In this document: positions 46,307 through 57,318 of the stretch, one piece after another
Layout: every line of letters begins with the position of its first letter
Position numbering within the stretch: position 1 is the stretch's first letter
Assembly (NCBI RefSeq): GCF_012910715.1
Contig: NZ_JABBHF010000007.1
Location: forward strand, 191,001-255,000
From: Flavivirga algicola
GTDB taxonomy: Bacteria > Bacteroidota > Bacteroidia > Flavobacteriales > Flavobacteriaceae
Reading direction: 5' to 3'
Length of the DNA: 64,000 nt
Notes under the pieces: model-generated
Seen by the model: only the letters and a program-made list of their open reading frames with translations
Told to the model about the DNA's origin: nothing
Databases searched by the model: none
Position numbers and translations under genes: made by a program

Positions 46307-49093
46307 ATGAAAAGAACATTACTTTGTTTATTAATAATTGTATTAGTAACATTTGGAACTACAAACGCTCAAAACCATGTATGGGCAACAACATTAGACG
46401 AAGACTCAGGAAAGTCTATAAAAATTGATGCATTAAATAATGTATACACTATTGGAATAACTCAAGCGGGACCAGGAACAGATAGAGGTGTTTTTATAAG
46501 AAAGCAAGATGCTAATGGTCTACAGCTTTGGATAAAATACATAAATGGTACTGGTGATGATCAACCATTAGCTTTAGCACTAGATAATAATGCCAATGTA
46601 TTAGTTACTGGCTACTTCAATTTTCAAGTAGATTTTGACCCAGGCTCAGGTGTATTTAATATGTCGGCATCCGCAAGAAATCAAAATGCCTTTATTTTAA
46701 AATTGGATACCCATGGAGATTTTATTTGGGCAAGACAGATCAATGGTCCATCAGGAGATTTTGGAAGAGGAATAACAGCCGATGGGGCAGGAAATGTTTA
46801 CACCACAGGCTTCTTTAAAGGTACAGTAGATTTCGATCCAGGTGCTGGTACAACAAACTTAACGGCTAATGGAACAAATCCCAATACATCAGATATTTTT
46901 ATTCAGAAATTAAATGCAGCAGGAGATTTTGTTTGGGCTGTGAACATGGGAGCAGGAAATAATGATGAAGGTATGGCTATAAAAACAGATACATCGGGTA
47001 ATGTATATACTACTGGGTATTTTGATGGAACAGTCGATTTTAATCCAGATCCAGATCCAACTACAGGGGTATATAATTTAAGTGCTGGAAGTAGTAGAAA
47101 TGCATTTATTCAAAAATTAGACAGCTCTGGTAATTTTATCTGGGCAAAGGCTTTTTTAAGCTCATCTGGACAGGTTTATACTTTAGCCATGGATGTAGAT
47201 GGATCAGAGAATGTATATACCACAGGTTACTTTAAATCCACGGTAGATTTTAATCCAGGAACAGGAACATTCAATATGTCTTCATTTGGAGGAGGAAATG
47301 ATATTTTTGTTACAAAATTGGACGCTGCTGGAGATTTTGTATGGGCAAAACATATGGGTAGAGCTGGTAGTGATGTAGGTAGAGGTATTGCTGTAGATAA
47401 TTCGGGTAATGTTTATACAACAGGTAGTTTTGGAGACACATGCGATTTCGATCCAGGTGCAGGTACGGAAAATTTAACTCCAGCTGGAAGTTTGGATATT
47501 TTTATTCAAAAATTAGATGCAATAGGAGATTACGAATGGGCAATAAGAGTTGGAGAGGTTTTAAATGATGTACCATTAGCTATCGAAGTAAAGGGGAATA
47601 ATATTTATACCACAGGTTATTATGAAGGTACTGTAGATTTCGACCCAAGCACAGGAGTTGCAAACTTATCTTCTATGACTTCTCGCGACGCTTTTACTCA
47701 TAAATTGGAGATTGTAAATTGTACAGTCAATATTCCAGATGCAAATTTTAAAAGCTACTTAGTAGGTGATACAGCCATAAACACCAATGGAGATACAGAA
47801 ATACAGTGTAGTGAAGCGAATGCTTATACAGGATGGATTTCGGTTGCGAATAGAAATATTTCAGATTTAACTGGTATAGAGTCTTTTGTTAATATTACCA
47901 AGTTGTTTTGTAATGGTAACTCATTAACAAGTCTAAATTTAACATTAAATCCCTTATTAGATCAAATGAATGCCAATGATAATAATTTAGTTGAATTAAA
48001 TATTTCCAGCGGCGGTAATACTAATATGGGATCGGGCTGGTTTAGTGCGGGTAACAATCCTAATCTTACATGTATTCAAGTAGATAATGTAGCATATAGT
48101 AATACGAATTGGATGTCTGGCATTGATGCTCAAACCAGTTTTAATACCAACTGTCCGCTTCCTTGTACAGTCAATATTCCAGATGCAAACTTTAAAAGCT
48201 ATTTAGTAGGCAACACTTCAATAAATACCAATGGTGATTCGGAAATACAGTGCAGTGAAGCCAGTGCTTTTACGGGAAGAATAAATTGTTCTAGTCGATC
48301 TATTTCCGATTTAACAGGAATAGAGGCTTTTACCGCTTTAACAGAATTAATATGTAATGACAATCAATTAACGGCTTTAGATATTTCTGCTAATACAGCT
48401 CTTACAGAGGTATGGTGTTATAACAATCAAATTGCATCTTTAGATATTTCTTCAAATACAGCACTAGGCACATTATTTACACAAAACAATGCGCTTACAA
48501 CTATAAATACGAATGGAGCTTCGAGTTTGTTTAACTTAGATTGTAGTAAGAATCAATTAACAAGTTTGGATGTGTCAAACAATGCGGCATTACAATTTTT
48601 ACGCTGTTTTGAAAATCAATTAACAAGTTTAGATGTGTCATTGAATCCCACATTGGTTACGTTAAATTGTGCTGATAATCAATTAACATCATTAAATGTA
48701 GCAAACGGCAATAATAATAATATGACGGGACCGAATCGATTTAATGCTCATATTAATCCAAACTTGACTTGTGTTACTATAGACAATGGTTTTACAGTTC
48801 CTTCCACTTGGGCTGCAGGTAGTCAAACCAATTTTAGTACAAGTTGTACTTTGGGCTTGGATGACTATGTACTAGAAAACATTACCATGTATCCTAACCC
48901 AGTAACAAGTATTTTAATAGTGCAGTTAGAAGAAGGTTTAGAAAGAATAGAAGTGTATACTGTGCGAGGGCAAAAGGTAATGGAGAACCATAAAAAGCAA
49001 GTGGACGTATCAAACCTTTCAACAGGACTATATCTGCTAAAAATATATACGAACTCGGGTAAAGTAGGTGTAAAACGCTTTATAAAAAATTAA
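46307..49093 (+). CDS. Large T9SS-secreted protein with SBBP beta-propeller repeats and leucine-rich repeats
   Basis: 928 residues. Signal peptide to about 21 (ending TTNAQ). Residues ~25-470 hold about eight repeats of the type GNVYTTGYF-x-G-T-VDFDPG-x-G with DAAGDFVWAK between, the SBBP (seven-bladed propeller-like) pattern; the DFDPG loops may bind calcium. Residues ~473-840 contain two LRR blocks, each opened by a near-identical cap (VNIPDANFKSYLVG, INTNGD-x-EIQCSEA, an EF-hand-like loop) and continuing with NQLTSLDVS-type 21-residue repeats. The end is a T9SS type A sorting domain (ITMYPNPVTSILIV to GLYLLKIYTNSGKVGVKRFIKN). Probably a surface adhesin or binding protein; no enzyme domain. 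Confidence 0.85.
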   Translation: MKRTLLCLLIIVLVTFGTTNAQNHVWATTLDEDSGKSIKIDALNNVYTIGITQAGPGTDRGVFIRKQDANGLQLWIKYINGTGDDQPLALALDNNANVLVTGYFNFQVDFDPGSGVFNMSASARNQNAFILKLDTHGDFIWARQINGPSGDFGRGITADGAGNVYTTGFFKGTVDFDPGAGTTNLTANGTNPNTSDIFIQKLNAAGDFVWAVNMGAGNNDEGMAIKTDTSGNVYTTGYFDGTVDFNPDPDPTTGVYNLSAGSSRNAFIQKLDSSGNFIWAKAFLSSSGQVYTLAMDVDGSENVYTTGYFKSTVDFNPGTGTFNMSSFGGGNDIFVTKLDAAGDFVWAKHMGRAGSDVGRGIAVDNSGNVYTTGSFGDTCDFDPGAGTENLTPAGSLDIFIQKLDAIGDYEWAIRVGEVLNDVPLAIEVKGNNIYTTGYYEGTVDFDPSTGVANLSSMTSRDAFTHKLEIVNCTVNIPDANFKSYLVGDTAINTNGDTEIQCSEANAYTGWISVANRNISDLTGIESFVNITKLFCNGNSLTSLNLTLNPLLDQMNANDNNLVELNISSGGNTNMGSGWFSAGNNPNLTCIQVDNVAYSNTNWMSGIDAQTSFNTNCPLPCTVNIPDANFKSYLVGNTSINTNGDSEIQCSEASAFTGRINCSSRSISDLTGIEAFTALTELICNDNQLTALDISANTALTEVWCYNNQIASLDISSNTALGTLFTQNNALTTINTNGASSLFNLDCSKNQLTSLDVSNNAALQFLRCFENQLTSLDVSLNPTLVTLNCADNQLTSLNVANGNNNNMTGPNRFNAHINPNLTCVTIDNGFTVPSTWAAGSQTNFSTSCTLGLDDYVLENITMYPNPVTSILIVQLEEGLERIEVYTVRGQKVMENHKKQVDVSNLSTGLYLLKIYTNSGKVGVKRFIKN
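47720..47890 (+). repeat. Internal direct repeat, copy 1 (LRR cap)
   Basis: First of two closely similar DNA segments within the SBBP/LRR gene, beginning TGTACAGTCAATATTCCAGA. It encodes the cap VNIPDANFKSYLVG to DLTGIE. The second copy is 444 bases downstream and in frame, pointing to a fairly recent duplication. Confidence 0.7.
48164..48334 (+). repeat. Internal direct repeat, copy 2 (LRR cap)
   Basis: Second copy, same opening 20 bases. Most differences from copy 1 are few and scattered; the encoded INTNGDSEIQCSEASAF parallels INTNGDTEIQCSEANAY. Confidence 0.7.
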
Positions 49094-49114
49094 ATCCCAA
49101 TGATTAAATAGCAG

Positions 49115-49147
49115 GTCGGGTGAGCCTTATGGCGAGCTCGGCTTTTA
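49115..49147 (+). terminator. Probable terminator behind the SBBP/LRR gene
   Basis: Stem GTCGGGT / GCTCGGC plus GCC / GGC around a TTAT loop with an internal GA/GA mismatch, followed by TTTTAATTT. Confidence 0.55.
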
Positions 49148-49180
49148 ATTTACTAATCTAAAAATTTAACCCATTATATT

Positions 49181-50188
49181 ATGAAAACAAAATTATTACT
49201 ATTATTTGTATTACTAGGGCTGGGAGGAATTGCTCAAAATGAAATTAAGCATCAAACCGAACAACTAGACCTGATTAATAAGGGAGAATATATCGCTTAT
49301 TTTACGAAACAAAATGGATCGAGTGAATATGAAGGCGGGCTGGATAAGCTCATATATAAATTAACGAAATTACAAGATTATAGAATTCAACCTGGAGCAC
49401 ATAAAGAAGTTTATATGGTCTTTGCAGGCAGTGCAGATCACCCTGAGAGACATAAAGAAACTATGTTTTTACCAGATAATGAAGCGTTTCCCATAACCTA
49501 TGTTCAAAAGGTATTTGAAGGCAATAAGGACATGCAGGATGAAATAGGATTTGCCCCTCGAATTAATCGTCTAACGGATGGAAACCGTCTTGTTTTTCTC
49601 GAAGGTAAGATTTACGCCATAAAAGATTGGAAAGACAAAGATAATTATAAACTGGTTTCCGTTTTAGAGCATCAAACAAAAAAGATGGGCGGTTTAAAAA
49701 AGATGAAAGAAGTCATGCGTTCTCCTAAAAAAATGAAAGCGATGCAGCCGCATGAAACTCTTCAGAAATATTTAGATAACGCATTTGAAAAACAACAGAC
49801 GGTATATGACCAATGGATGAAAAAACCACAAAACGCGGCTATTGTTGAAAATACCGAAAGCATACGAAAATTAACAATTGATGCTATTAATAAGCAAAGA
49901 GCAGATTGGAGAAACTCAGATGAATACAGACGTATTAAAGAGCGCAACCAGAGTTTTGCTCAAAGCGATCTTGAAAATCGAGTTACCATAAGAAACAATT
50001 CAGGAAAAGATATCTACATCTATGCCGAAGGGTCAAGCAACGGATCTCGTGTTTCAATTAGTGGAAATGGCACATTTAGTTGTAAAAAAAATCAATACTA
50101 TAGTTTTAACGGTAATTCGTCTGCGGCTAATGCGACAAAAATTGCCAGTGCTAATCAAAGTTGTGGTCAGACCATAACAGTGAATTAG
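49181..50188 (+). CDS. Secreted protein of unknown function
   Basis: 335 residues with a signal peptide (MKTKLLLLFVLLGLGGIAQ). The middle is helical and Lys-rich (TKKMGGLKKMKEVMRSPKKMK), the last ~70 residues are a beta-rich domain (NRVTIRNNSGKDIYIYAEG, SISGNGTFSCKKNQYYSFNG). Two Cys in that domain (FSCKKN, NQSCGQT) may form a disulfide. No T9SS sorting signal. I do not recognise the family. It follows the SBBP/LRR gene after a probable terminator. Confidence 0.65.
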   Translation: MKTKLLLLFVLLGLGGIAQNEIKHQTEQLDLINKGEYIAYFTKQNGSSEYEGGLDKLIYKLTKLQDYRIQPGAHKEVYMVFAGSADHPERHKETMFLPDNEAFPITYVQKVFEGNKDMQDEIGFAPRINRLTDGNRLVFLEGKIYAIKDWKDKDNYKLVSVLEHQTKKMGGLKKMKEVMRSPKKMKAMQPHETLQKYLDNAFEKQQTVYDQWMKKPQNAAIVENTESIRKLTIDAINKQRADWRNSDEYRRIKERNQSFAQSDLENRVTIRNNSGKDIYIYAEGSSNGSRVSISGNGTFSCKKNQYYSFNGNSSAANATKIASANQSCGQTITVN

Positions 50189-50335
50189 AACATTTCACAA
50201 GGTTAAACATGTTAAAGCAAGAACTGAGGAGTTTATTGTATTTAATTATTGAGATAGCTCCTGGAAGAAAAACTTCTGGGAGTACTCAAAACCTAGATTA
50301 GTTTGAATAACTCAATTAAAATTATGTTTATAAAA

Positions 50336-50788
50336 ATGAAGCAAATTATTTTAGTATGGTTGGTTTGTAGTAGTAGTGTTGGCTTCTCACAAGAAAAGTT
50401 GCCAGATCAAAGTATAAATGGAACTTATCACTTATTATTTGCTGAGCAGGGTAGCGAAACTAAAACAAAGTTATTCCAATTTGGTGAGAATAATGGAGTA
50501 AAATTATTGGCTATAGCGGCCTGTGAAAAATGTATTCCAGCAATTTATACCTATCAACCAGAGGCCAGTAAAAAACTTGGTGTACGTGTATTTCTTAATA
50601 ATTTGGGATTGTACGTTATTGGTTATGATGAAGAAAGCTTTATAATTGTATTGGTCAAAAATAAGCTTGGTAACGGTGTATGGAACGATTTTTCATTTAG
50701 TAACTTCTACAGTAAAAATAAGGGGCTAGTCAAAAGTATGACTAAGGAAAAAATAAAAGCTTATGCTATTAGTCTTTCAAAAAAGTGA
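50336..50788 (+). CDS. Small secreted protein of unknown function
   Basis: About 150 residues from the Met at 50336, which gives a clean signal peptide (MKQIILVWLVCSSSVGFSQ); in-frame Mets at 50303 and 50327 would add a polar stretch before it. The mature domain is beta-rich (NGTYHLLFAEQGSETKTKLF, KLGVRVFLNNLGLYVIGYDE) with a CEKC pair (AACEKCIPA) that could be redox-active or metal-binding. No family recognised. Confidence 0.6.
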   Translation: MKQIILVWLVCSSSVGFSQEKLPDQSINGTYHLLFAEQGSETKTKLFQFGENNGVKLLAIAACEKCIPAIYTYQPEASKKLGVRVFLNNLGLYVIGYDEESFIIVLVKNKLGNGVWNDFSFSNFYSKNKGLVKSMTKEKIKAYAISLSKK

Positions 50789-50832
50789 AAAAGCTTATTT
50801 TATTCTAAAGTTTATCTTTATCTGGGCTTAAA

Positions 50833-51204
50833 TTACTGCCAAAAATTAACAAGTAATAAAAACCAGCCCATCACCAAAAGTAAACCACCTAGAGGAGTTA
50901 TAGGTCCTAGAAACCGAAGTTTCTTTCCTTTGGCACTGGATAAAATCAATCCGTAAATACTAAAAGAAAATAAAAGAATCCCTATCGTGAAACACCAATA
51001 AATAGAAGATGTTATAGTGTTGGAATTAAATCCTAGGATAAGCAAAACAATAGCATGATACATTTGATATTTCACCCCTGTTTCAAAACTCTTTAGTTGT
51101 TCATCTGATAGAACTTTCTTAAGCAAATGGGCACCGAAAGCACCAAAAATAACAGATAGCATACCAAATACAGAAGCCGTAGTAATAACAATTTGTTGCG
51201 TCAT
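50833..51204 (-). CDS. DUF423 small membrane protein
   Basis: 123 residues with four membrane helices. Family signatures: SVIFGAFGAHLLKK near the start, FETGVKYQMYHAIVLLILG in the middle and RFLGPITPLGGLLLVMGW at the end. The family (YgdD-like) is widespread and of unknown function. It lies 5 bases downstream of the methyltransferase gene, so they share a transcript. Confidence 0.9.
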   Translation of the reverse strand: MTQQIVITTASVFGMLSVIFGAFGAHLLKKVLSDEQLKSFETGVKYQMYHAIVLLILGFNSNTITSSIYWCFTIGILLFSFSIYGLILSSAKGKKLRFLGPITPLGGLLLVMGWFLLLVNFWQ

Positions 51205-51209
51205 AAGTA

Positions 51210-51977
51210 CTAATTTTTAAAAACCACTGGAATGATTTCACCAGGTGCTAAGCAATATTTTTTTACGTCAGCTTCAGAAAGTGTTGAGGTATAATCAACT
51301 TCTTCAACCTTAAAACCAATACTGCGGAGTTTATCAAAATAGTCGCGACCGTATACACGTACGTGATCATACTGCCCAAATATTTTTGCACGCTCTTTTT
51401 TATCTGTAATAGTGTTATCCTCAAATGTTTTTTCTCTTGCTAAGTCTTGCGGAATTTGAAAAATACCCATGCCGCCAACTTTTAAAACTCGATACAGTTC
51501 TTGCATGGCTTTTGTATCGTCTGGAATATGTTCTAAAACATGATTACAAAAAATAATATCGAATTCATCATTTTTAAATGGCAAGCTACAAATATCGGCT
51601 TTTACATCTGCCAAAGGAGAATTTAAATCGGTTGTTACATAATCAAGATTTTTCATCTTTCTAAAGCGTTTACAAAATGCCTGTTCTGGAGCGAAGTGTA
51701 GCACTTTTTTTGTGGCTGTAAAGAAATCAGTTTCGTTTTGTAAGTATAGCCATAGTAACCGATGACGTTCTAAAGATAATGTAGAAGGGGATAGTACATT
51801 ATTGCGTTGTTTACCATAACCATAAGGTAAAAAGCTTTTGAACCCCTTGTTGTCTATAGGGTCGGTATATGTATTACCTTTTAAAAAGAATGCTAAAACA
51901 GGACGGATAATATAGCTTAACCTGATGAGTAAAGGTCTTGGGATAGTGTTTAATATAATTTTGAAGGCTTTTTTCAA
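51210..51977 (-). CDS. Class I SAM-dependent methyltransferase with a TTG start
   Basis: 255 residues. Methyltransferase_11-type fold: DYVTTDLNSPLADVKADIC, then the core FDIIFCNHVLEHIPDDTKAMQELYRVLKVGGMGIFQIP. The VLEHIPDD and LKVGG motifs are typical. Substrate unknown. The predicted product begins LKKAFKIILNTIPRPLLIRL with TTG as first codon; an in-frame TGA lies three codons before it, so no upstream ATG is possible. From memory homologues begin with ATG here. The codon lies 15 bases from the left repeat of the GxxExxY cassette, so the insertion may have disturbed the start region. Confidence 0.85.
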   Translation of the reverse strand: MKKAFKIILNTIPRPLLIRLSYIIRPVLAFFLKGNTYTDPIDNKGFKSFLPYGYGKQRNNVLSPSTLSLERHRLLWLYLQNETDFFTATKKVLHFAPEQAFCKRFRKMKNLDYVTTDLNSPLADVKADICSLPFKNDEFDIIFCNHVLEHIPDDTKAMQELYRVLKVGGMGIFQIPQDLAREKTFEDNTITDKKERAKIFGQYDHVRVYGRDYFDKLRSIGFKVEEVDYTSTLSEADVKKYCLAPGEIIPVVFKN

Positions 51978-51992
51978 GATATTTCACTGAAT

Positions 51993-52026
51993 TTTTTTGA
52001 CACGAATTTCACGAATTTTCACGAAT
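51993..52026. repeat. Left inverted repeat of the GxxExxY cassette
   Basis: 34 bases starting TTTTTTGACACGAATTTCAC, containing CACGAAT three times. It matches the reverse complement of 52435-52468 at 33 of 34 positions and ends 2 bases from the GxxExxY stop codon. Confidence 0.9.
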
Positions 52027-52028
52027 GA

Positions 52029-52403
52029 TTATAGTACAATTCTTTTATATTTTAAGCTGTCTTCTCCAAAATTAATAAGAATACCGAGTTTCAGTTTTGA
52101 AACAGCCAGATAATTTAATGTTTGTTTTACGTTAGCGGGGGAGAGGCACCCAATAGCTTTTATTTCTAAGACAATTTTATCGAAAATAATGAAATCTGCT
52201 TTGTATTTGTGCGGTAAGATGTTGCCTTTATAATTTATATCGAATTTTTTTTCTCTTGAATAATCTATTCCATTGTCTATAAATTCAATTTCTAATGCAT
52301 CAGCATAAACAACCTCATTAAAACCTTTTCCTAATTGATTATGCACTTCCATACAAATGCCAATTATTTTATAGGCTTCATCTTTATGGATAATTTGAGT
52401 CAT
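52029..52403 (-). CDS. GxxExxY protein (PD-(D/E)XK nuclease-like)
   Basis: 124 residues of the GxxExxY family, named for the motif seen here as GFNEVVY (about residues 28-34). The core resembles a PD-(D/E)XK nuclease: Glu of the motif, Asp in YKADFIIF and E-x-K in IVLEIKAIG. Helix IIGICMEVHNQLGKG before it and LSPANVKQTLNYLAVSKLKLGILINFG after it are family features. Function is unknown in the literature I recall. The gene fills nearly all the space between two 34-bp inverted repeats, so it appears to be the single gene of a cassette inserted between map and the methyltransferase gene. Confidence 0.88.
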   Translation of the reverse strand: MTQIIHKDEAYKIIGICMEVHNQLGKGFNEVVYADALEIEFIDNGIDYSREKKFDINYKGNILPHKYKADFIIFDKIVLEIKAIGCLSPANVKQTLNYLAVSKLKLGILINFGEDSLKYKRIVL

Positions 52404-52434
52404 TAAAATATTGGATTATTAAGTATAGGATAAG

Positions 52435-52468
52435 ATTCGTGAAAATTCGTGAAATTAGTGTCAAAAAA
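52435..52468. repeat. Right inverted repeat of the GxxExxY cassette
   Basis: 34 bases ending TTAGTGTCAAAAAA, the inverted partner of 51993-52026 (one mismatch). Its outer end touches the map stop codon at 52469. Outside the two repeats are CTGAAT (51987-51992) and CTAAAT (52469-52474), which may be a diverged 6-base target duplication. Confidence 0.9.
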
Positions 52469-53287
52469 CTAAATTACTAAAGCCTTCTGACGGAACTCAT
52501 CCTCTTCCTTACTCTCAATACCTAAGGCTTCATGTACATAAGCAAACGTAGATAGTATTTCGGGTTTTCCGTCTACAAGTGCCACGTCATGTTCAAAATG
52601 CACACTAGGTTTCCCATCTTGCGTAACAATAGTCCAACCGTCTTTTAATTGTCTTACTTTATGAGTGCCTCCATTTATCATAGGCTCTATGGCTACTACC
52701 ATACCCTCAACAAATTTTTTACCACGACCTCTACGACCATAATTTGGCATTTCTGGATCTTCATGCATCTTTCTGCCTAATCCATGACCAACCAATTCTC
52801 TAACGACACCATAACCGTGGCTTTCGCAATGTTTTTGTATAGCATAACCAACATCGCCCACGCGATTATTTGCTTTGAATTCTCTAATACCAATATAAAG
52901 CGATTCTTTGGTTACCTGTATAAGCTTTTTTGTTTCAGGATCTACATCACCAATTTCAAAAGTATACGCATGATCTCCGTAAAACTCGTTCATTAACGCG
53001 CCACAGTCAATAGAGACAATATCACCATTTTTTAAAGGGGTATTTGTAGGTAAACCATGCACCACAGCTTCGTTTACGCTACAAAGCAAAGTTGATGGGC
53101 AGTCGTATAACCCTAAAAAACCTGGTAAAGCACCTTGATCTCTTATAAATTCTTCAGCAAGTTTATCAAGCTGCATAGTGGTAACGCCTTCCTTAACTTC
53201 TTTGGCAAGCATGCCAAGCGTTTTGGAAACTATCAATGCACTTTTGCGCATCAATTCAATTTCTTCTTTTGTTTTTACTACAATCAT
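52469..53287 (-). CDS. map: Type I methionine aminopeptidase
   Basis: Removes the initiator Met from nascent proteins; cytosolic, di-metal. 272 residues. Metal ligands are visible: Asp in VSIDCGALMNEFYGDHAYTF, His in VVRELVGHGLGRKMHEDP, Glu in VVAIEPMINGG and Glu in SVHFEHDVALVDGKP. The PNY segment after MHEDPEM is also conserved. The 3' end is intact although a cassette repeat begins immediately after the stop codon. Upstream is a -7 box. Confidence 0.96.
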   Translation of the reverse strand: MIVVKTKEEIELMRKSALIVSKTLGMLAKEVKEGVTTMQLDKLAEEFIRDQGALPGFLGLYDCPSTLLCSVNEAVVHGLPTNTPLKNGDIVSIDCGALMNEFYGDHAYTFEIGDVDPETKKLIQVTKESLYIGIREFKANNRVGDVGYAIQKHCESHGYGVVRELVGHGLGRKMHEDPEMPNYGRRGRGKKFVEGMVVAIEPMINGGTHKVRQLKDGWTIVTQDGKPSVHFEHDVALVDGKPEILSTFAYVHEALGIESKEEDEFRQKALVI

Positions 53288-53304
53288 GTCTAAAAAAATA
53301 ATGG

Positions 53305-53312
53305 CAAAGATA
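53305..53312 (-). promoter_or_regulatory. Candidate -7 box for map
   Basis: Minus-strand TATCTTTG matches TAnnTTTG 18 bases before the map start. Confidence 0.4.
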
Positions 53313-53408
53313 CTTAAAATTAAGTATTAATATTTTTTTGCTAATATGACTTTTGACATTTTTTAAAAGGCTGTAAATGAATAAATTTATATACTAAAAT
53401 GAAATAAA

Positions 53409-54674
53409 ATGTATAAAGTTGTTAGTGCTGAAGAGGCTGTTAAGGTGATTAAAAGCAACCATCGGGTTTATATTCAGGCAGCCGCGGCAGCTCCACAGTT
53501 ATTAATGAATGCCATGACAGAGCGGCACGAGGAATTAAGAAATGTTGAGGTTTGCCATTTACATGTTGAAGGAAAGGCAGGTTATGCCAATCCTGAGCTT
53601 AGCGACAGCTTTCATGTTAACTCATTTTTTATAGGAGATAATGTACGTCATACATTAACCTCTGGTAACGGCTCTTACACACCCGTTTTTCTAAGTGAGC
53701 TGCCATTATTGTTTAAGCGGAATATTTTACCATTAGACGTTGCATTAATTCATGTGTCTGTTCCAGATAAGCATGGCTATTGTTCATTAGGGGTTTCGGT
53801 AGAAGCTACCTTGGCAGCCATAGATAACGCCAAAATTGTTATTGCCCAGATAAACGAACAAATGCCAAGAACACATGGAGATGGTATTATCCATAGCACA
53901 GAAATAGATTTATTTGTTGAATGTAATGTTCCCATACCTGCTCATGCTTATGGAAACCCATCGGTTATTGAAAATAAAATAGGTGACTATGTTGCAAGTT
54001 TAATTGAAGACAAGAGCACTTTACAAATGGGAATAGGCACTATTCCCAATGCGGTATTATCTCGTTTAACTAACCATAAGGATTTAGGTTTACATACTGA
54101 AATGTTTTCTGATGGGGTTATTGATCTTATTATGAATGACGTGATTAATGGAAATTTTAAAGGGGTAAATCCAGGGCGAGCGCTAGCTACATTTTTAATA
54201 GGGTCTAAACGGTTGTATGATTATGTTGATGATAATCCGTTTGTAGAAATGCGTGCTTCAGATTATGTAAATGATGTGTCTATTATTAAACAAAACCCTA
54301 GAATGGTAGCTATTAACTCTGCTATTGAGGTAGATTTAACAGGACAAGTATGTGCTGACTCTATTGGAGCTAAAATGTATTCTGGTGTAGGTGGGCAAAT
54401 GGATTATATTAGAGGCGCATCATTAAGCCATGAAGGGAAAGCTATTATAGCCTTGCCCTCGATTACAAAGAAAGGTATTAGTAGAATAGTTCCGTCTTTA
54501 AAACCAGGGGCTGGCGTGGTTACAACAAGAGCACATGTGCATCATGTTGTTACCGAATATGGCATAGCTAATTTATATGGTAAAACAATAAAAGAACGCG
54601 TTAAAGCTTTGGTGGATATTGCTCACCCAGACCATAGAGCGTCAATCGATAAAACGTATTATCAATTAATTTAA
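53409..54674 (+). CDS. Acetyl-CoA hydrolase/CoA-transferase family protein
   Basis: 421 residues of the acetyl-CoA hydrolase/transferase family, most like 4-hydroxybutyrate or acetate CoA-transferases. Two alpha/beta CoA-transferase domains: N-terminal VIKSNHRVYIQAAAAAPQLL, LHVEGKAGY; C-terminal LQMGIGTIPNAVLSRL, HTEMFSDGVIDL, the likely catalytic Glu region INSAIEVDLTGQV, GGQMDYIRGASLS, and VTEYGIANLYGKTIKERVKAL. It moves CoA between short acyl-CoAs and acids; the physiological substrate cannot be set here. Single gene, divergent from map. Confidence 0.9.
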   Translation: MYKVVSAEEAVKVIKSNHRVYIQAAAAAPQLLMNAMTERHEELRNVEVCHLHVEGKAGYANPELSDSFHVNSFFIGDNVRHTLTSGNGSYTPVFLSELPLLFKRNILPLDVALIHVSVPDKHGYCSLGVSVEATLAAIDNAKIVIAQINEQMPRTHGDGIIHSTEIDLFVECNVPIPAHAYGNPSVIENKIGDYVASLIEDKSTLQMGIGTIPNAVLSRLTNHKDLGLHTEMFSDGVIDLIMNDVINGNFKGVNPGRALATFLIGSKRLYDYVDDNPFVEMRASDYVNDVSIIKQNPRMVAINSAIEVDLTGQVCADSIGAKMYSGVGGQMDYIRGASLSHEGKAIIALPSITKKGISRIVPSLKPGAGVVTTRAHVHHVVTEYGIANLYGKTIKERVKALVDIAHPDHRASIDKTYYQLI

Positions 54675-54681
54675 TAACACA

Positions 54682-55086
54682 CTATTTAAGAAAACTAAGA
54701 AAGCCCTTTTTTTTGGGAATTTCAGGAGGTTTTGTGTTTGTGAGTATTTGGTATATTTCTCCCCAGCCTAAAAAACCGCCTATATTTCTATCGTCAATAA
54801 ATAAATCGGCATTAATCTTTCTGCTTACATCATTGGTATACTCTTCTTCTGGGAAACTATTATTTACAGCATAGAAATGGATACCATGATCTTCACAAAA
54901 TTTAACGGCTTGATTTAATCGTTCACCAGATCTGTAAGTCCACAAAATAAGTCGGTGCCCATCGTCTTGTAGCTTTTTTAAAGTTTCAAAAGCAAATAGG
55001 ATGGGCTTCCCTATTTTAGGATATGCGTCTTCAACAATAGTTCCATCAAAATCTATTGCAATAACGAGTTGGTTGTTAAAATTCAT
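54682..55086 (-). CDS. HAD-superfamily hydrolase, small BT0820-like
   Basis: 134 residues, cap-less HAD fold. Motif I is IAIDFDGTIVEDAYP, motif II LILWTYRSGE, motif IV ADLFIDDRNIGG. The family has one structurally known member from Bacteroides; the phosphate substrate is unknown. It converges on the CoA-transferase gene with 7 bases between. Confidence 0.85.
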   Translation of the reverse strand: MNFNNQLVIAIDFDGTIVEDAYPKIGKPILFAFETLKKLQDDGHRLILWTYRSGERLNQAVKFCEDHGIHFYAVNNSFPEEEYTNDVSRKINADLFIDDRNIGGFLGWGEIYQILTNTKPPEIPKKKGFLSFLK

Positions 55087-55112
55087 TTTAAGCTATAAAC
55101 TTGGGTTTACAA

Positions 55113-55120
55113 CAAAAGTA
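55113..55120 (-). promoter_or_regulatory. Candidate -7 box for the HAD hydrolase
   Basis: Minus-strand TACTTTTG matches TAnnTTTG 27 bases before the start codon. Confidence 0.4.
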
Positions 55121-55142
55121 CAACAATTTATTTTTTGTTTAT

Positions 55143-56660
55143 TTATACCAGAGCATGTTGCGTCATAGATTCTGGCTGTTCAACCCCCATTAGCTTTAAA
55201 ATAGTAGGTGCCATATCGCCTAAAATACCATCTTCAATAGTCTTTAATTCCTTATCGATTAAAATAACAGGAACAGGGTTTGTAGTATGTGCTGTATTTG
55301 GTGAACCGTCAGGGTTTATCATGGTTTCACAATTTCCATGATCGGCTATAAGCAATGTAGAATAACCATTTTCTAAAGCTGTTGTGATAACATCTTCGAC
55401 ACATTTATCTACTGCTTCACAAGCTTTTATGGCAGCTTCCATAACTCCTGTATGTCCTACCATATCACCATTAGCAAAGTTTAAACAAACAAAATCAACC
55501 TCACCTTTTTCAAGCTCAGGAATCAAAGCATCACGTAGTTCATAAGCACTCATTTCAGGTTTCAAGTCGTATGTAGCTACTTTTGGAGAGTTTCTTAAAA
55601 TACGTGTTTCTCCATTAAAAGGTTCTTCGCGTCCCCCCGAGAAAAAGAATGTTACATGCGGATATTTTTCTGTTTCAGCGATACGAATTTGCTTTTTGTT
55701 ATTTTTTTCTAAAACTTCACCTAGTGTTTCAGATAAATTCTCTTTATTGAATATAACATTTACATTTTTATATGTTTCATCATAATTTGTAAGTGTTACA
55801 TAATGCAAATTCAATTTGTGCATGTTTTGTTCATGAAAATCGGTTTGCGATAAAGCTTCAGTTAGTTCCCTTCCACGATCTGTTCTAAAGTTAAAAAAGA
55901 TAACGACGTCACCCTCCTTGATTTTAGTTTGAGGGTTACCAGCTTCATCAACCATAATTATTGGTTTGATAAACTCATCGGTAATATCATTATTATAGCT
56001 TTTTTGAACAGTCTCTGTAACATTAGTAGATTTTTCCCCATGACCATTAACCATAGCATCATAAGCTAATTTTACACGCTCCCAACGCTTGTCTCTATCC
56101 ATAGCATAGTAACGGCCAGTAACAGTTGCTAATTTGCTATTTGTTTTCTCTAAATGACTTTCCAGTTCGGTAAGAAAACCATAACCCGATTTTGGATCTA
56201 CATCACGGCCATCTGTAAATGCATGGACAAAGGTTTGGGTTAAGCCAAAATCGTTAGCAGCTTCCAATAGTTCAAATAAATGATTAATATGAGAATGCAC
56301 TCCACCATCACTTAATAACCCTAAAAAATGAACATCTTTATTATTGGTTTTGGCGTAATTAAATGCGTCTACCAATACTTTTTCGTTATTTAATGTTTTG
56401 TTTTTAACAGCCAAGTTAACTTTTACCAAATCCTGGTAAACAATACGTCCTGCACCAAGATTCATATGTCCCACTTCACTATTTCCCATTTGGCCTTCTG
56501 GTAAACCAACGTGTAAACCATCAGTTCTTAAGGTAGCAAACGGGTATTTTTTGTAAAGTGAATCTATATAAGATGTATTTGCATGATCGATAGCAGAAAC
56601 TTTAGGGTCTGGGGAATTCCCCCAGCCATCAAGTATCATTAAGATAACTTTCTTGTTCAT
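55143..56660 (-). CDS. gpmI: 2,3-bisphosphoglycerate-independent phosphoglycerate mutase
   Basis: Interconverts 3- and 2-phosphoglycerate using two Mn ions. Start taken at the Met at 56660 (MNKKVILMILDGWGN), giving 505 residues; an in-frame Met at 56687 overlaps the promoter box. Signatures: phospho-Ser loop GQMGNSEVGHMNLGAGR, FTDGRDVDPKSGYGFL, RYYAMDRDKRWERV, FFNFRTDRGREL, VTFFFSGGREEPFNGE, NFANGDMVGHTG and LIADHGNCETMI carrying metal ligands. Single gene. Confidence 0.97.
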   Translation of the reverse strand: MNKKVILMILDGWGNSPDPKVSAIDHANTSYIDSLYKKYPFATLRTDGLHVGLPEGQMGNSEVGHMNLGAGRIVYQDLVKVNLAVKNKTLNNEKVLVDAFNYAKTNNKDVHFLGLLSDGGVHSHINHLFELLEAANDFGLTQTFVHAFTDGRDVDPKSGYGFLTELESHLEKTNSKLATVTGRYYAMDRDKRWERVKLAYDAMVNGHGEKSTNVTETVQKSYNNDITDEFIKPIIMVDEAGNPQTKIKEGDVVIFFNFRTDRGRELTEALSQTDFHEQNMHKLNLHYVTLTNYDETYKNVNVIFNKENLSETLGEVLEKNNKKQIRIAETEKYPHVTFFFSGGREEPFNGETRILRNSPKVATYDLKPEMSAYELRDALIPELEKGEVDFVCLNFANGDMVGHTGVMEAAIKACEAVDKCVEDVITTALENGYSTLLIADHGNCETMINPDGSPNTAHTTNPVPVILIDKELKTIEDGILGDMAPTILKLMGVEQPESMTQHALV

Positions 56661-56684
56661 TTTTGTTAAAATTTTAATAAGAAG

Positions 56685-56692
56685 CAAAGATA
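56685..56692 (-). promoter_or_regulatory. Candidate -7 box for gpmI
   Basis: Minus-strand TATCTTTG matches TAnnTTTG 25 bases before the Met at 56660; this rules against the upstream Met at 56687. Confidence 0.45.
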
Positions 56693-56910
56693 AAGAAGTT
56701 AAATAAAAGAATACACAAATAACCTTTCAAATACTAGAGTTTTCAGGGCTTTTTCGAGGTTTATAAAAAAAGAATCATTCAGTTAATTATTTGTGAAAAA
56801 AAAGTTAAAAATGTGTTATTTATTGTTTTTTGTGTAACAGTTTAAAATTAATATCGTCTCTTTAATATATCAAAAAACGAAAAATCATAAATCAAATTAA
56901 ATCTTTCATC

Positions 56911-57318
56911 ATGAAAAAATCAGTCATTATTACCGCCATTGCATTGTGTTTCTCTCTGGTAACTGTCAATGCTAAAACTGCTACAGAAAACATTAATATG
57001 ACGCCTGTTGAGTTTGAATTTAAAGTGAACTCATTTTGTGTTTCAATTGCTAAAGGAGATTTAGAAACTGTTAAGAAACTTATTGACAGAGGAGCAGATG
57101 TAAATGAAATGTCTAATGGAATGACCCCAATCATGTATGCTGCCAAATTTAACAGAACAGATATTTTAAAACTTTTAATAGCTAAAGGAGCTAACTTAAA
57201 AGCAAAATCTGCTAAAAAAATGACAGCACTGAAATATGCTGAATTGCACGGAGCCACAGACGCTGCTGCAATTATAAAAGATGCGTTAGCGAAAGTAAAA
57301 GCAAAAAGGAAAAAATAA
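56911..57318 (+). CDS. Secreted ankyrin-repeat protein
   Basis: 135 residues with a signal peptide (MKKSVIITAIALCFSLVTVNA). About three ankyrin units follow: NSFCVSIAKGDLETVKKLIDRGADVNE, NGMTPIMYAAKFNRTDILKLLIAKGANLKA, MTALKYAELHGATDAAAII, with the TPLH-like TPIMYAA core. It ends in a Lys-rich tail (KAKRKK). A periplasmic protein-binding role is likely; no partner visible. Confidence 0.85.
   Translation: MKKSVIITAIALCFSLVTVNAKTATENINMTPVEFEFKVNSFCVSIAKGDLETVKKLIDRGADVNEMSNGMTPIMYAAKFNRTDILKLLIAKGANLKAKSAKKMTALKYAELHGATDAAAIIKDALAKVKAKRKK

Follow-up and report, generated by a model that had tools for sequence, protein, structure and literature searches.

We describe a compact cassette in a stretch of 64,000 nucleotides (nt) from Flavivirga algicola (contig NZ_JABBHF010000007.1, positions 191,001 to 255,000; the whole stretch is called the window here), in which a single gene for a GxxExxY protein lies between two inverted arms made of seven-base units. 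Together the arms and the gene fill the whole junction between map and a methyltransferase gene (MT). We consider it moderately probable that this cassette is a selfish unit comparable to the repetitive extragenic palindromes and their REP-associated tyrosine transposases (REP/RAYT), with an unrelated enzyme, rarely mobile and mostly inherited in place. The sequences point to this through the pairing of gene and arms, the match of arm type to protein clade, the regular steps between units, arms that occur without a gene, two elements at one site, and one clear discordance between the cassette and its neighbors. Elements of one gene in the order arm, GxxExxY gene, inverted arm would then form a widespread class, to which the cassette belongs.

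GxxExxY genes and their arms

The layout proposed by a first-pass annotation, inverted arms of 34 bases around one GxxExxY gene beside the map stop codon, was confirmed in its coordinates (Table 1). The arms are 97% complementary (33/34) with 408 nt between them; the gene stops 2 nt short of one arm, 31 nt separate its start from the other, and the map-side arm directly adjoins CTA (52469-52471), the stop codon of map. CACGAAT had been reported three times in each repeat, which holds for the MT-side arm, whereas the map-side arm has two copies and one CACTAAT. The inverted-repeat score of the window locus is 31.5, against a best of 15 among 640 dinucleotide-preserving shuffles of GxxExxY flanks, and the four pairs of CRCDRAK units spaced 8-11 nt apart that the entire window contains are all within the two arms.

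The pairing of gene and arms is general across GxxExxY genes. It was scored as the best inverted repeat between the 250 nt on each side of a gene, with a threshold of 14 that 2 of the 640 shuffles reached. In a first set, 93 of 128 GxxExxY genes reach this threshold versus 6 of 214 control open reading frames (ORFs) of the same loci, three of which reach 18 (Fisher p 4e-46); without the window locus (L006) and L007, the count is 91 of 126. In a larger set, 184 of 192 genes were recruited by GxxExxY similarity, three by a map search (L177, L187, and L194), and five by the arm pattern (L006, L007, L207, L209, and L224). Removal of duplicates and of rows with fewer than 81 aligned residues left 200 unique genes, eight of which lack 250 clean nt on a side. 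The threshold is reached by 140 of the 192 genes, by 134 of the 184 recruited through protein similarity alone, and by 113 of the 159 away from the map site. The expectation that the repeat would recur beside such genes is therefore borne out in relatives (the 134 of 184), and not within the genome of the window (G000; 5.02 Mb, 37 contigs), where a 19-mer of the arm with up to two mismatches was matched only at the two arms. A spread of the window's arm within its own genome was thus not seen in this search.

Pairing was also seen on other kinds of replicon. Relatives are encoded in eight records of the plasmid collection, three of which (from Bernardetia, Bacteroides finegoldii, and Sphingomonas) score 18-22.5, and three of four relatives on viral contigs score at least 21 (L057, L138, and L139), the fourth (L140) scoring 13. 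As an example outside Bacteroidota, a Sphingomonas parapaucimobilis replicon (L319) has the order fabD, arm, GxxExxY gene, arm, fabG. The IMG/VR contig of L139 carries its GxxExxY gene between inverted arms of ~71 nt (score 44) with a different, A-rich unit.

The arms are rows of two to four seven-base units (CACGAAT, CRCAGAT, CACAGAG, CGCAAAG, CACATAG, and similar), of which 969 are oriented towards the gene and 269 away from it. Over all types, CRCDRAK spacings peak at 10 (202), 21 (116), and 31 (55), and a motif-free autocorrelation of flanks away from map peaks at a lag of 9-10 and again at 21, with none at 31. Two unit types, defined after the first loci had been seen, were used for counting: the AAT type (T-type; CACGAAT, the window's kind) and the AAG type (G-type). 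AAG-type arms have spacing peaks at 10, 21, and 31, or ~10.4 base pairs (bp) per step, and AAT-type arms at 9-10 and 19, or ~9.5 bp per step.

The protein is predicted to be a minimal nuclease of the Cas4/lambda-exonuclease kind with all motifs kept. The window protein matches TIGR04256 (GxxExxY) at 138.7 bits (cut-off 35; profile positions 2-116 of 116) and PF13366 (PDDEXK_3) at 124.3 bits (cut-off 22); these are its only profile matches, with no known transposase domain. Across 21 sequences, G25, G27, E30, Y33, L37, E40, D70, E80, K82, Q94, Y98, L109, N111, and F112 are invariant, and D70, E80, K82, Q94, and Y98 are also invariant in an alignment of 38. The window protein has every motif (G27-E30-Y33, D70, E80-x-K82, and Q94xxxY98), and D...ExK with QxxxY are hallmarks of RecB/Cas4/lambda-exonuclease nucleases. 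An AlphaFold2 model built from the 38 sequences (pLDDT 94.7, pTM 0.87) found six PDB chains with Foldseek at E ≤ 0.001, only from Cas4 SSO0001 (4ic1, best E 7e-5), LHK exonuclease, and lambda exonuclease. Their TM-scores to the query are ~0.5-0.6, which therefore indicates a shared fold family and not a close relative; a sequence search for solved structures of relatives returned none (best E 0.55). The protein is a single domain of ~110-125 amino acids (aa), and no partner genes were noticed.

On the sequences compared, arm type follows protein clade, as would be expected of cognate arms. Among window-like (T-like) proteins with full flanks (n=32), 28 have AAT-type arms, none AAG-type, and 4 too few units to call. 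L030-like (G-like) proteins (n=126) have 102 AAG-type, 3 AAT-type, and 21 with too few units; the other proteins (n=34) divide into 4, 7, and 23, respectively. The protein tree groups arm types likewise, and for 140 genes protein identity correlates with arm word content (Mantel rho 0.33, a value that none of 999 permutations, uncorrected for shared ancestry, attained). Scores for concerted evolution of the two arms within one locus were mixed. The agreement of arm type and clade among relatives supports the first-pass view that gene and repeats are one unit, and the repeats are the most likely target of the protein.

The genome of the window has a second GxxExxY gene (L004, G000:C7:48919-49210), in two frames and flanked by CGCAAAG-like repeats; G-type arm patterns number zero in this genome.

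Table 1. Features of the cassette and its neighbors in the window
Feature	Position	Strand	Description
MT-side arm (T-type)	51993-52026	+	34 nt, outer T6 tract
MT-side arm units, CACGAAT x3	52001-52007, 52010-52016, 52020-52026		steps of 9 and 10, oriented towards the gene
Map-side arm	52435-52468	-	inverted copy of the MT-side arm, 33/34 match
Map-side arm units	CACTAAT 52460-52454, CACGAAT 52451-52445, CACGAAT 52441-52435	-	oriented towards the gene
GxxExxY gene	52029-52403	-	124 aa, PD-(D/E)XK (PDDEXK_3)
Probable remnant of an older G-type (CACAGAG) right arm	51978-51992	-	between the MT-side arm and the methyltransferase start
map (methionine aminopeptidase; name from the first-pass annotation)	52469-53287	-	upstream neighbor, same direction as the GxxExxY gene
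MT (methyltransferase; name from the first-pass annotation)	51210-51977	-	downstream neighbor of the cassette

Gene-less arms and the map-MT junction

Arms also occur without a gene. Among 196 genomes sampled from the order, GxxExxY matches (E ≤ 1e-12) are patchy and present in 63, and the arm pattern CACRRAGNNNCACRRAG was found in 24 of these 63 versus 9 of the 133 others (p 2e-7), a hand-tabulated comparison that is uncorrected for kinship and in which many genomes have a single pattern match. TIGR04256 was later found in two genomes tallied as "without" (G487 and G361), and in none of the nine pattern-bearing genomes so tallied. The true pattern has 208 matches, spread over 33 of the 196 genomes; read backwards, it has 20, in 17 genomes. 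At 20 pattern places away from listed GxxExxY genes the gene was absent in all, and at 13 of them phased units occur on both strands inside 200 nt, as they do in 1 of 208 kilobases of background and in none of 28 pieces from map loci; the places were picked by hand, often at pattern clusters, so that 13 of 20 is not a rate. One such place (L229) has four units at steps of 10, 11, and 10, a gap of 19 nt, and then four units in inverted orientation, spaced identically. Eighteen further pattern places within the genus hold no GxxExxY gene, and four of them have phased units on both strands. In one orthologous gap, copies counted by eye number five in tandem in G304, two in G306, and one each in G305 and G303, with fragments in G299 and G300 and none in G019, G302, G301, G248, G307, and G000.

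Two side observations concern these regions. In G220 (L009 and L239), T-type, G-type, and CGCAAAG-type arms are interleaved in gene-less composite units that are tandemly repeated. In intergenic regions of the genus, among them L374, L379, and L381 (in G306 and G304), gene-less arms are surrounded by CAGTGTTCAGTATTCAGTGATCAG, another stutter repeat, which has no sequence relationship with the arms.

The map-MT junction differs among congeners and among other genera, so the cassette does not sit at an identical position in all relatives. MT lies downstream of map, within ~930 nt, in all 12 genomes of the genus that were compared. The junction has a T-type element in six of them (the G302 copy is decayed). 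Five have a G-type element encoding a protein with 34-37% identity to that of the window, and G307 has a different small ORF there, cupin-like by reading of its sequence. Beside the T-type arm there are letters shared with a G-type arm end, 14-15 of 17 in G303 and in G305 and 10-13 of 17 in G000, the 17 letters having been chosen and aligned by eye to three G-type ends, with two of them within the arm's outer A tract. The probable G-type remnant can thus be made out clearly in G303 and G305, less so in G000. A G-type arm end next to a T-type arm suggests that the T-type element probably replaced an older G-type element at this junction. As a separate observation, the junction of G304 (L053/L038) has tandem partial duplications of the G-type left end that extend into the gene start.

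Other genera were represented by the 28 best-scoring of 86 other genomes with a map match, one per genus. A GxxExxY element is at the junction in six of the 28, two of them decayed, and in one of the decayed copies (G036) a T-type left end precedes a G-type remnant. Six others, with G060 left out of the count, have an empty junction, with ~2-10 nt between the last map sense codon and MT, stop codon included. In a tree of the 200 proteins, the 33 map-site rows fall in two places, with nine T-type rows in one clade (support 84) and 24 G-type rows within a clade of 26 (support 95). Two lineages have therefore occupied the site, each mostly inherited in place.

The flanks CTGAAT and CTAAAT, previously suggested to be a diverged target duplication of 6 bases (CTRAAT), are not one: CTAAAT contains the map stop codon, and CTGAAT falls within the probable older arm end at 51978-51992.

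A clear discordance between the cassette and its neighbors is found in one of four copies from other genera. Between G000 and G125, of another genus, the GxxExxY gene is 82.8% identical in nucleotides, map 74.7%, and MT 75.1%, versus 75-80%, 87-90%, and 83-85% within the genus, where two of the four MT identity values rest on partial alignments. In G157, of a further genus, the contrast is present at the protein level (gene 87%, map 86%, and MT 77%). Monophyly of the genus's five elements is rejected by the approximately unbiased test, modestly (p-AU 0.032, 339 columns).

Movement of the cassette is rare. Synteny was compared for 117 genes with at least 1.2 kb on each side, in pairs not both at map. 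Above 90% identity, both flanks are shared in all 16 pairs; of the 20 pairs at 80-90%, 12 keep both flanks in the same orientation, four have them swapped, and four have none in common; at 70-80%, 4 of 168 have the same orientation, two are swapped, and 162 share none, which may also reflect host distance. Close copies are nearly always syntenic, and movement must therefore be rare. The swapped pairs come from one locus, in Flavobacterium and a Flavobacteriaceae relative, between trpS-like and acyltransferase-like ORFs (named by eye), where the cassettes of L079/L090 are opposite to those of L107/L127/L137, as if flipped between the inverted arms. All map-site pairs have the cassette in a single orientation.

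The interpretation as a tiny mobile element is thus partly supported. Empty junctions, two non-orthologous elements at one site in one genus, one discordance, and gene-less arms speak for some mobility. The image of a recently hopping, insertion sequence-like element with a target duplication is not supported: close copies are nearly always syntenic, no target duplication was seen, and the genome has a single copy of the arm pair.

Mechanism and alternative explanations

A mechanism can be hypothesized in which the GxxExxY protein recognizes arms of its own type, and copies of the protein could align along the helix, as units are about one helical turn apart. The protein might then cut at or near the arms, or at a hairpin or cruciform formed by the two inverted arms, after which host repair would copy or rejoin the arm-bounded segment. 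Occasionally, the whole cassette might be moved, replaced, or inverted; as a further outcome, gene-less arms could multiply as palindromes and tandem clusters. More tentatively, and as a proposal on which we are almost evenly divided, bacteria could have a second class of interspersed palindromes, independent of RAYTs, with GxxExxY nucleases as its dedicated enzymes. Many "stutter" repeats that lack an explanation (units such as CACAGAG, CGCAAAG, CACGAAT, and CGCAGAT, spaced by about a helical turn, which in some genomes have been noted as regulator sites) would then descend from single-gene elements armed with a nuclease, in several phyla and on viral contigs.

Several observations weigh against a selfish unit of this kind. 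Binding or cutting of the arms by the protein, and the route by which copies would arise, are steps that we infer from sequence. No arm above threshold accompanies 52 of the 192 genes, and the remaining five of the eight plasmid-collection records score 7-11 and have no arms. The ~9.5-bp step of AAT-type arms falls short of a helical turn, and within single genomes the correlation of protein and arm distances is weak (rho 0.21, p 0.10, 64 pairs). Two genomes of one genus (G465 and G474) have 17 and 21 arm-pattern matches and no TIGR04256 match, and in G220 there are solo T-type arms although its three GxxExxY matches include no close relative of the T-type. Differences in arm number at the gene-less sites compared can be read equally as gain or loss. 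Discordance is hardly there in the nucleotides of G157 (gene 77.8, map 77.5, and MT 73.0) and absent from G135 (66.4, 68.5, and 67.3) and G477 (gene 69.5 and map 72.3). The group tested for monophyly was picked after the first tree had been seen. The closest copies all keep their flanks, no insertion was seen between near-identical strains, and inspection by eye of the junctions of the 12 congeners and the empty junctions of other genera found no target duplication. At map, gene and neighbors are co-directional, so the element may have been retained for expression.

A host system for regulation or chromosome organization, in which GxxExxY or another protein binds the phased arms to bend or regulate DNA, the scattered arms are its sites, the arms beside the gene are autoregulatory, and nothing is mobile, appears unlikely to us and would accommodate part of the data. 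Steps near a helical turn suit protein binding, the elements mostly remain in place, and paired class 2 repeats of Geobacter metallireducens are interpreted, in the available part of their description, as sites of a global regulator, perhaps IHF/HU (PMC2700814). For operators, however, it would be unusual to have inward arms on both sides of a gene, gene and arms exchanged together at one site, and arm numbers that vary between species at one gap, and the protein retains every nuclease motif.

It could also be speculated that the arms are repeats like miniature inverted-repeat transposable elements (MITEs), moved by an unrelated transposase, with the GxxExxY gene merely carried between two of them. 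Gene-less arms, including those of the two genomes with no TIGR04256 match, and the joint occurrence of different arm types (L008 and L009; L236 and L239) would fit such a passenger. We regard it as improbable, as arm type tracks the GxxExxY clade across genera, the control ORFs of the same loci so seldom reach the threshold, and no target duplication like that of an insertion sequence was seen.

A role in the transcript, where the inverted arms could pair in mRNA as a long-range stem, attenuator, terminator, or protective structure, would agree with the single cassette orientation at map and is very improbable. The arms in the window are far apart, their regular steps have no clear meaning for RNA, the only two terminator-like sites found are both within map and none is at the arms, and an Rfam scan gave no family at or near the gathering score. 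Promoter-like sites are at chance level.

Least probable of all is an anti-phage or toxin-like module whose arms restrain or aim the nuclease: the Cas4-like fold and the patchy presence in the order would suit it, but PADLOC returns nothing for the window protein at E ≤ 0.1, one G-type relative has weak matches only (Cas4, E 0.0013, and PbeC), relatives are absent from the phage records of the collection (E ≤ 1e-5), and a reading of the ORFs of 48000-57000 by eye brought up no cas or defence gene. A phage origin of the element was set aside on the same phage records; four IMG/VR loci do encode relatives.

Comparison with known systems

The closest likeness of the cassette, read as a selfish unit, is to REP/RAYT. 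The accessible parts of two papers describe a small gene with its own repeats on either side, inverted pairs of the repeats dispersed without the gene in intergenic space, a repeat type that matches the protein type, and a protein phylogeny largely congruent with that of the species (PMC3116915, PMC3733652). As in REPtrons and REPINs, the gene here is flanked by its own repeat type and gene-less inverted repeat pairs are dispersed in relatives; the window's own genome has none of its own arm type. RAYTs, in contrast, are HUH/Y1 tyrosine transposases, whereas a PD-(D/E)XK nuclease is predicted here, and REPs are tagged with GTAG, whereas the arms are rows of seven-base units with no GTAG or CTAC in either. 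With a different enzyme and different repeats, the cassette is therefore not a RAYT system, while the likeness stands.

Other known systems share single traits. The predicted fold and the D..ExK and QxxxY motifs resemble those of Cas4, lambda exonuclease, and RecE nucleases; the protein differs from Cas4 in its small single domain and in having no cas-like neighbor in the region inspected. Cas4 has a four-cysteine iron-sulfur cluster, for which the two cysteines of the window protein are therefore too few. Like insertion sequences and MITEs, the cassette has one gene between inverted repeats and gene-less derivatives; it differs in the lack of a transposase domain or of a visible target duplication and in its long-term residence. 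As with homing endonucleases, the nuclease could spread by cutting element-free sites followed by repair copying, and it is placed precisely between two genes. Homing endonucleases are not known to have inverted arms of repeated units, and here there is no intron or intein.

Repeats of such appearance may have been seen before in print. The excerpted account of G. metallireducens gives the class 2 paired tandem repeats a consensus of TCTCCGTS[Y], on opposite strands, as sites of a global regulator that the authors left unidentified, and calls another set "similar to multicopy sequences in many other genomes" (PMC2700814); further multicopy repeats are noted, in the parts available, for G. bemidjiensis and Pelobacter carbinolicus (PMC2996986, PMC3543383). 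CACGGAG, a unit seen in arms, has CTCCGTG as its reverse complement; compared by description, the class 2 repeats differ in the reading given to them, as regulator or IHF/HU sites, with no link to GxxExxY in the accessible text (PMC2700814). The available passages of two papers only name the GxxExxY domain or protein (PMC8934634, PMC12085832), and those of another mention PF13366/PDDEXK_3 (PMC9756366). The literature searched, largely without subscription journals, had no mention of TIGR04256, none of twelve arm strings, and no link between GxxExxY and repeats.

We call the element new, by this link of GxxExxY to repeats, because neither the enzyme nor the repeats belong to a known element class tested here; if any system of a gene with dispersed repeats is counted as one kind, the cassette is not a separate kind. 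GxxExxY proteins are common in the order and had no assigned function in the literature searched, and dispersed phased repeats of bacteria are likewise unexplained. Their tie would make of both one testable system with a named protein and a named DNA site. If the proposal is true, a second class of REP-like parasites exists within bacterial genomes, with a Cas4-like nuclease at its core.

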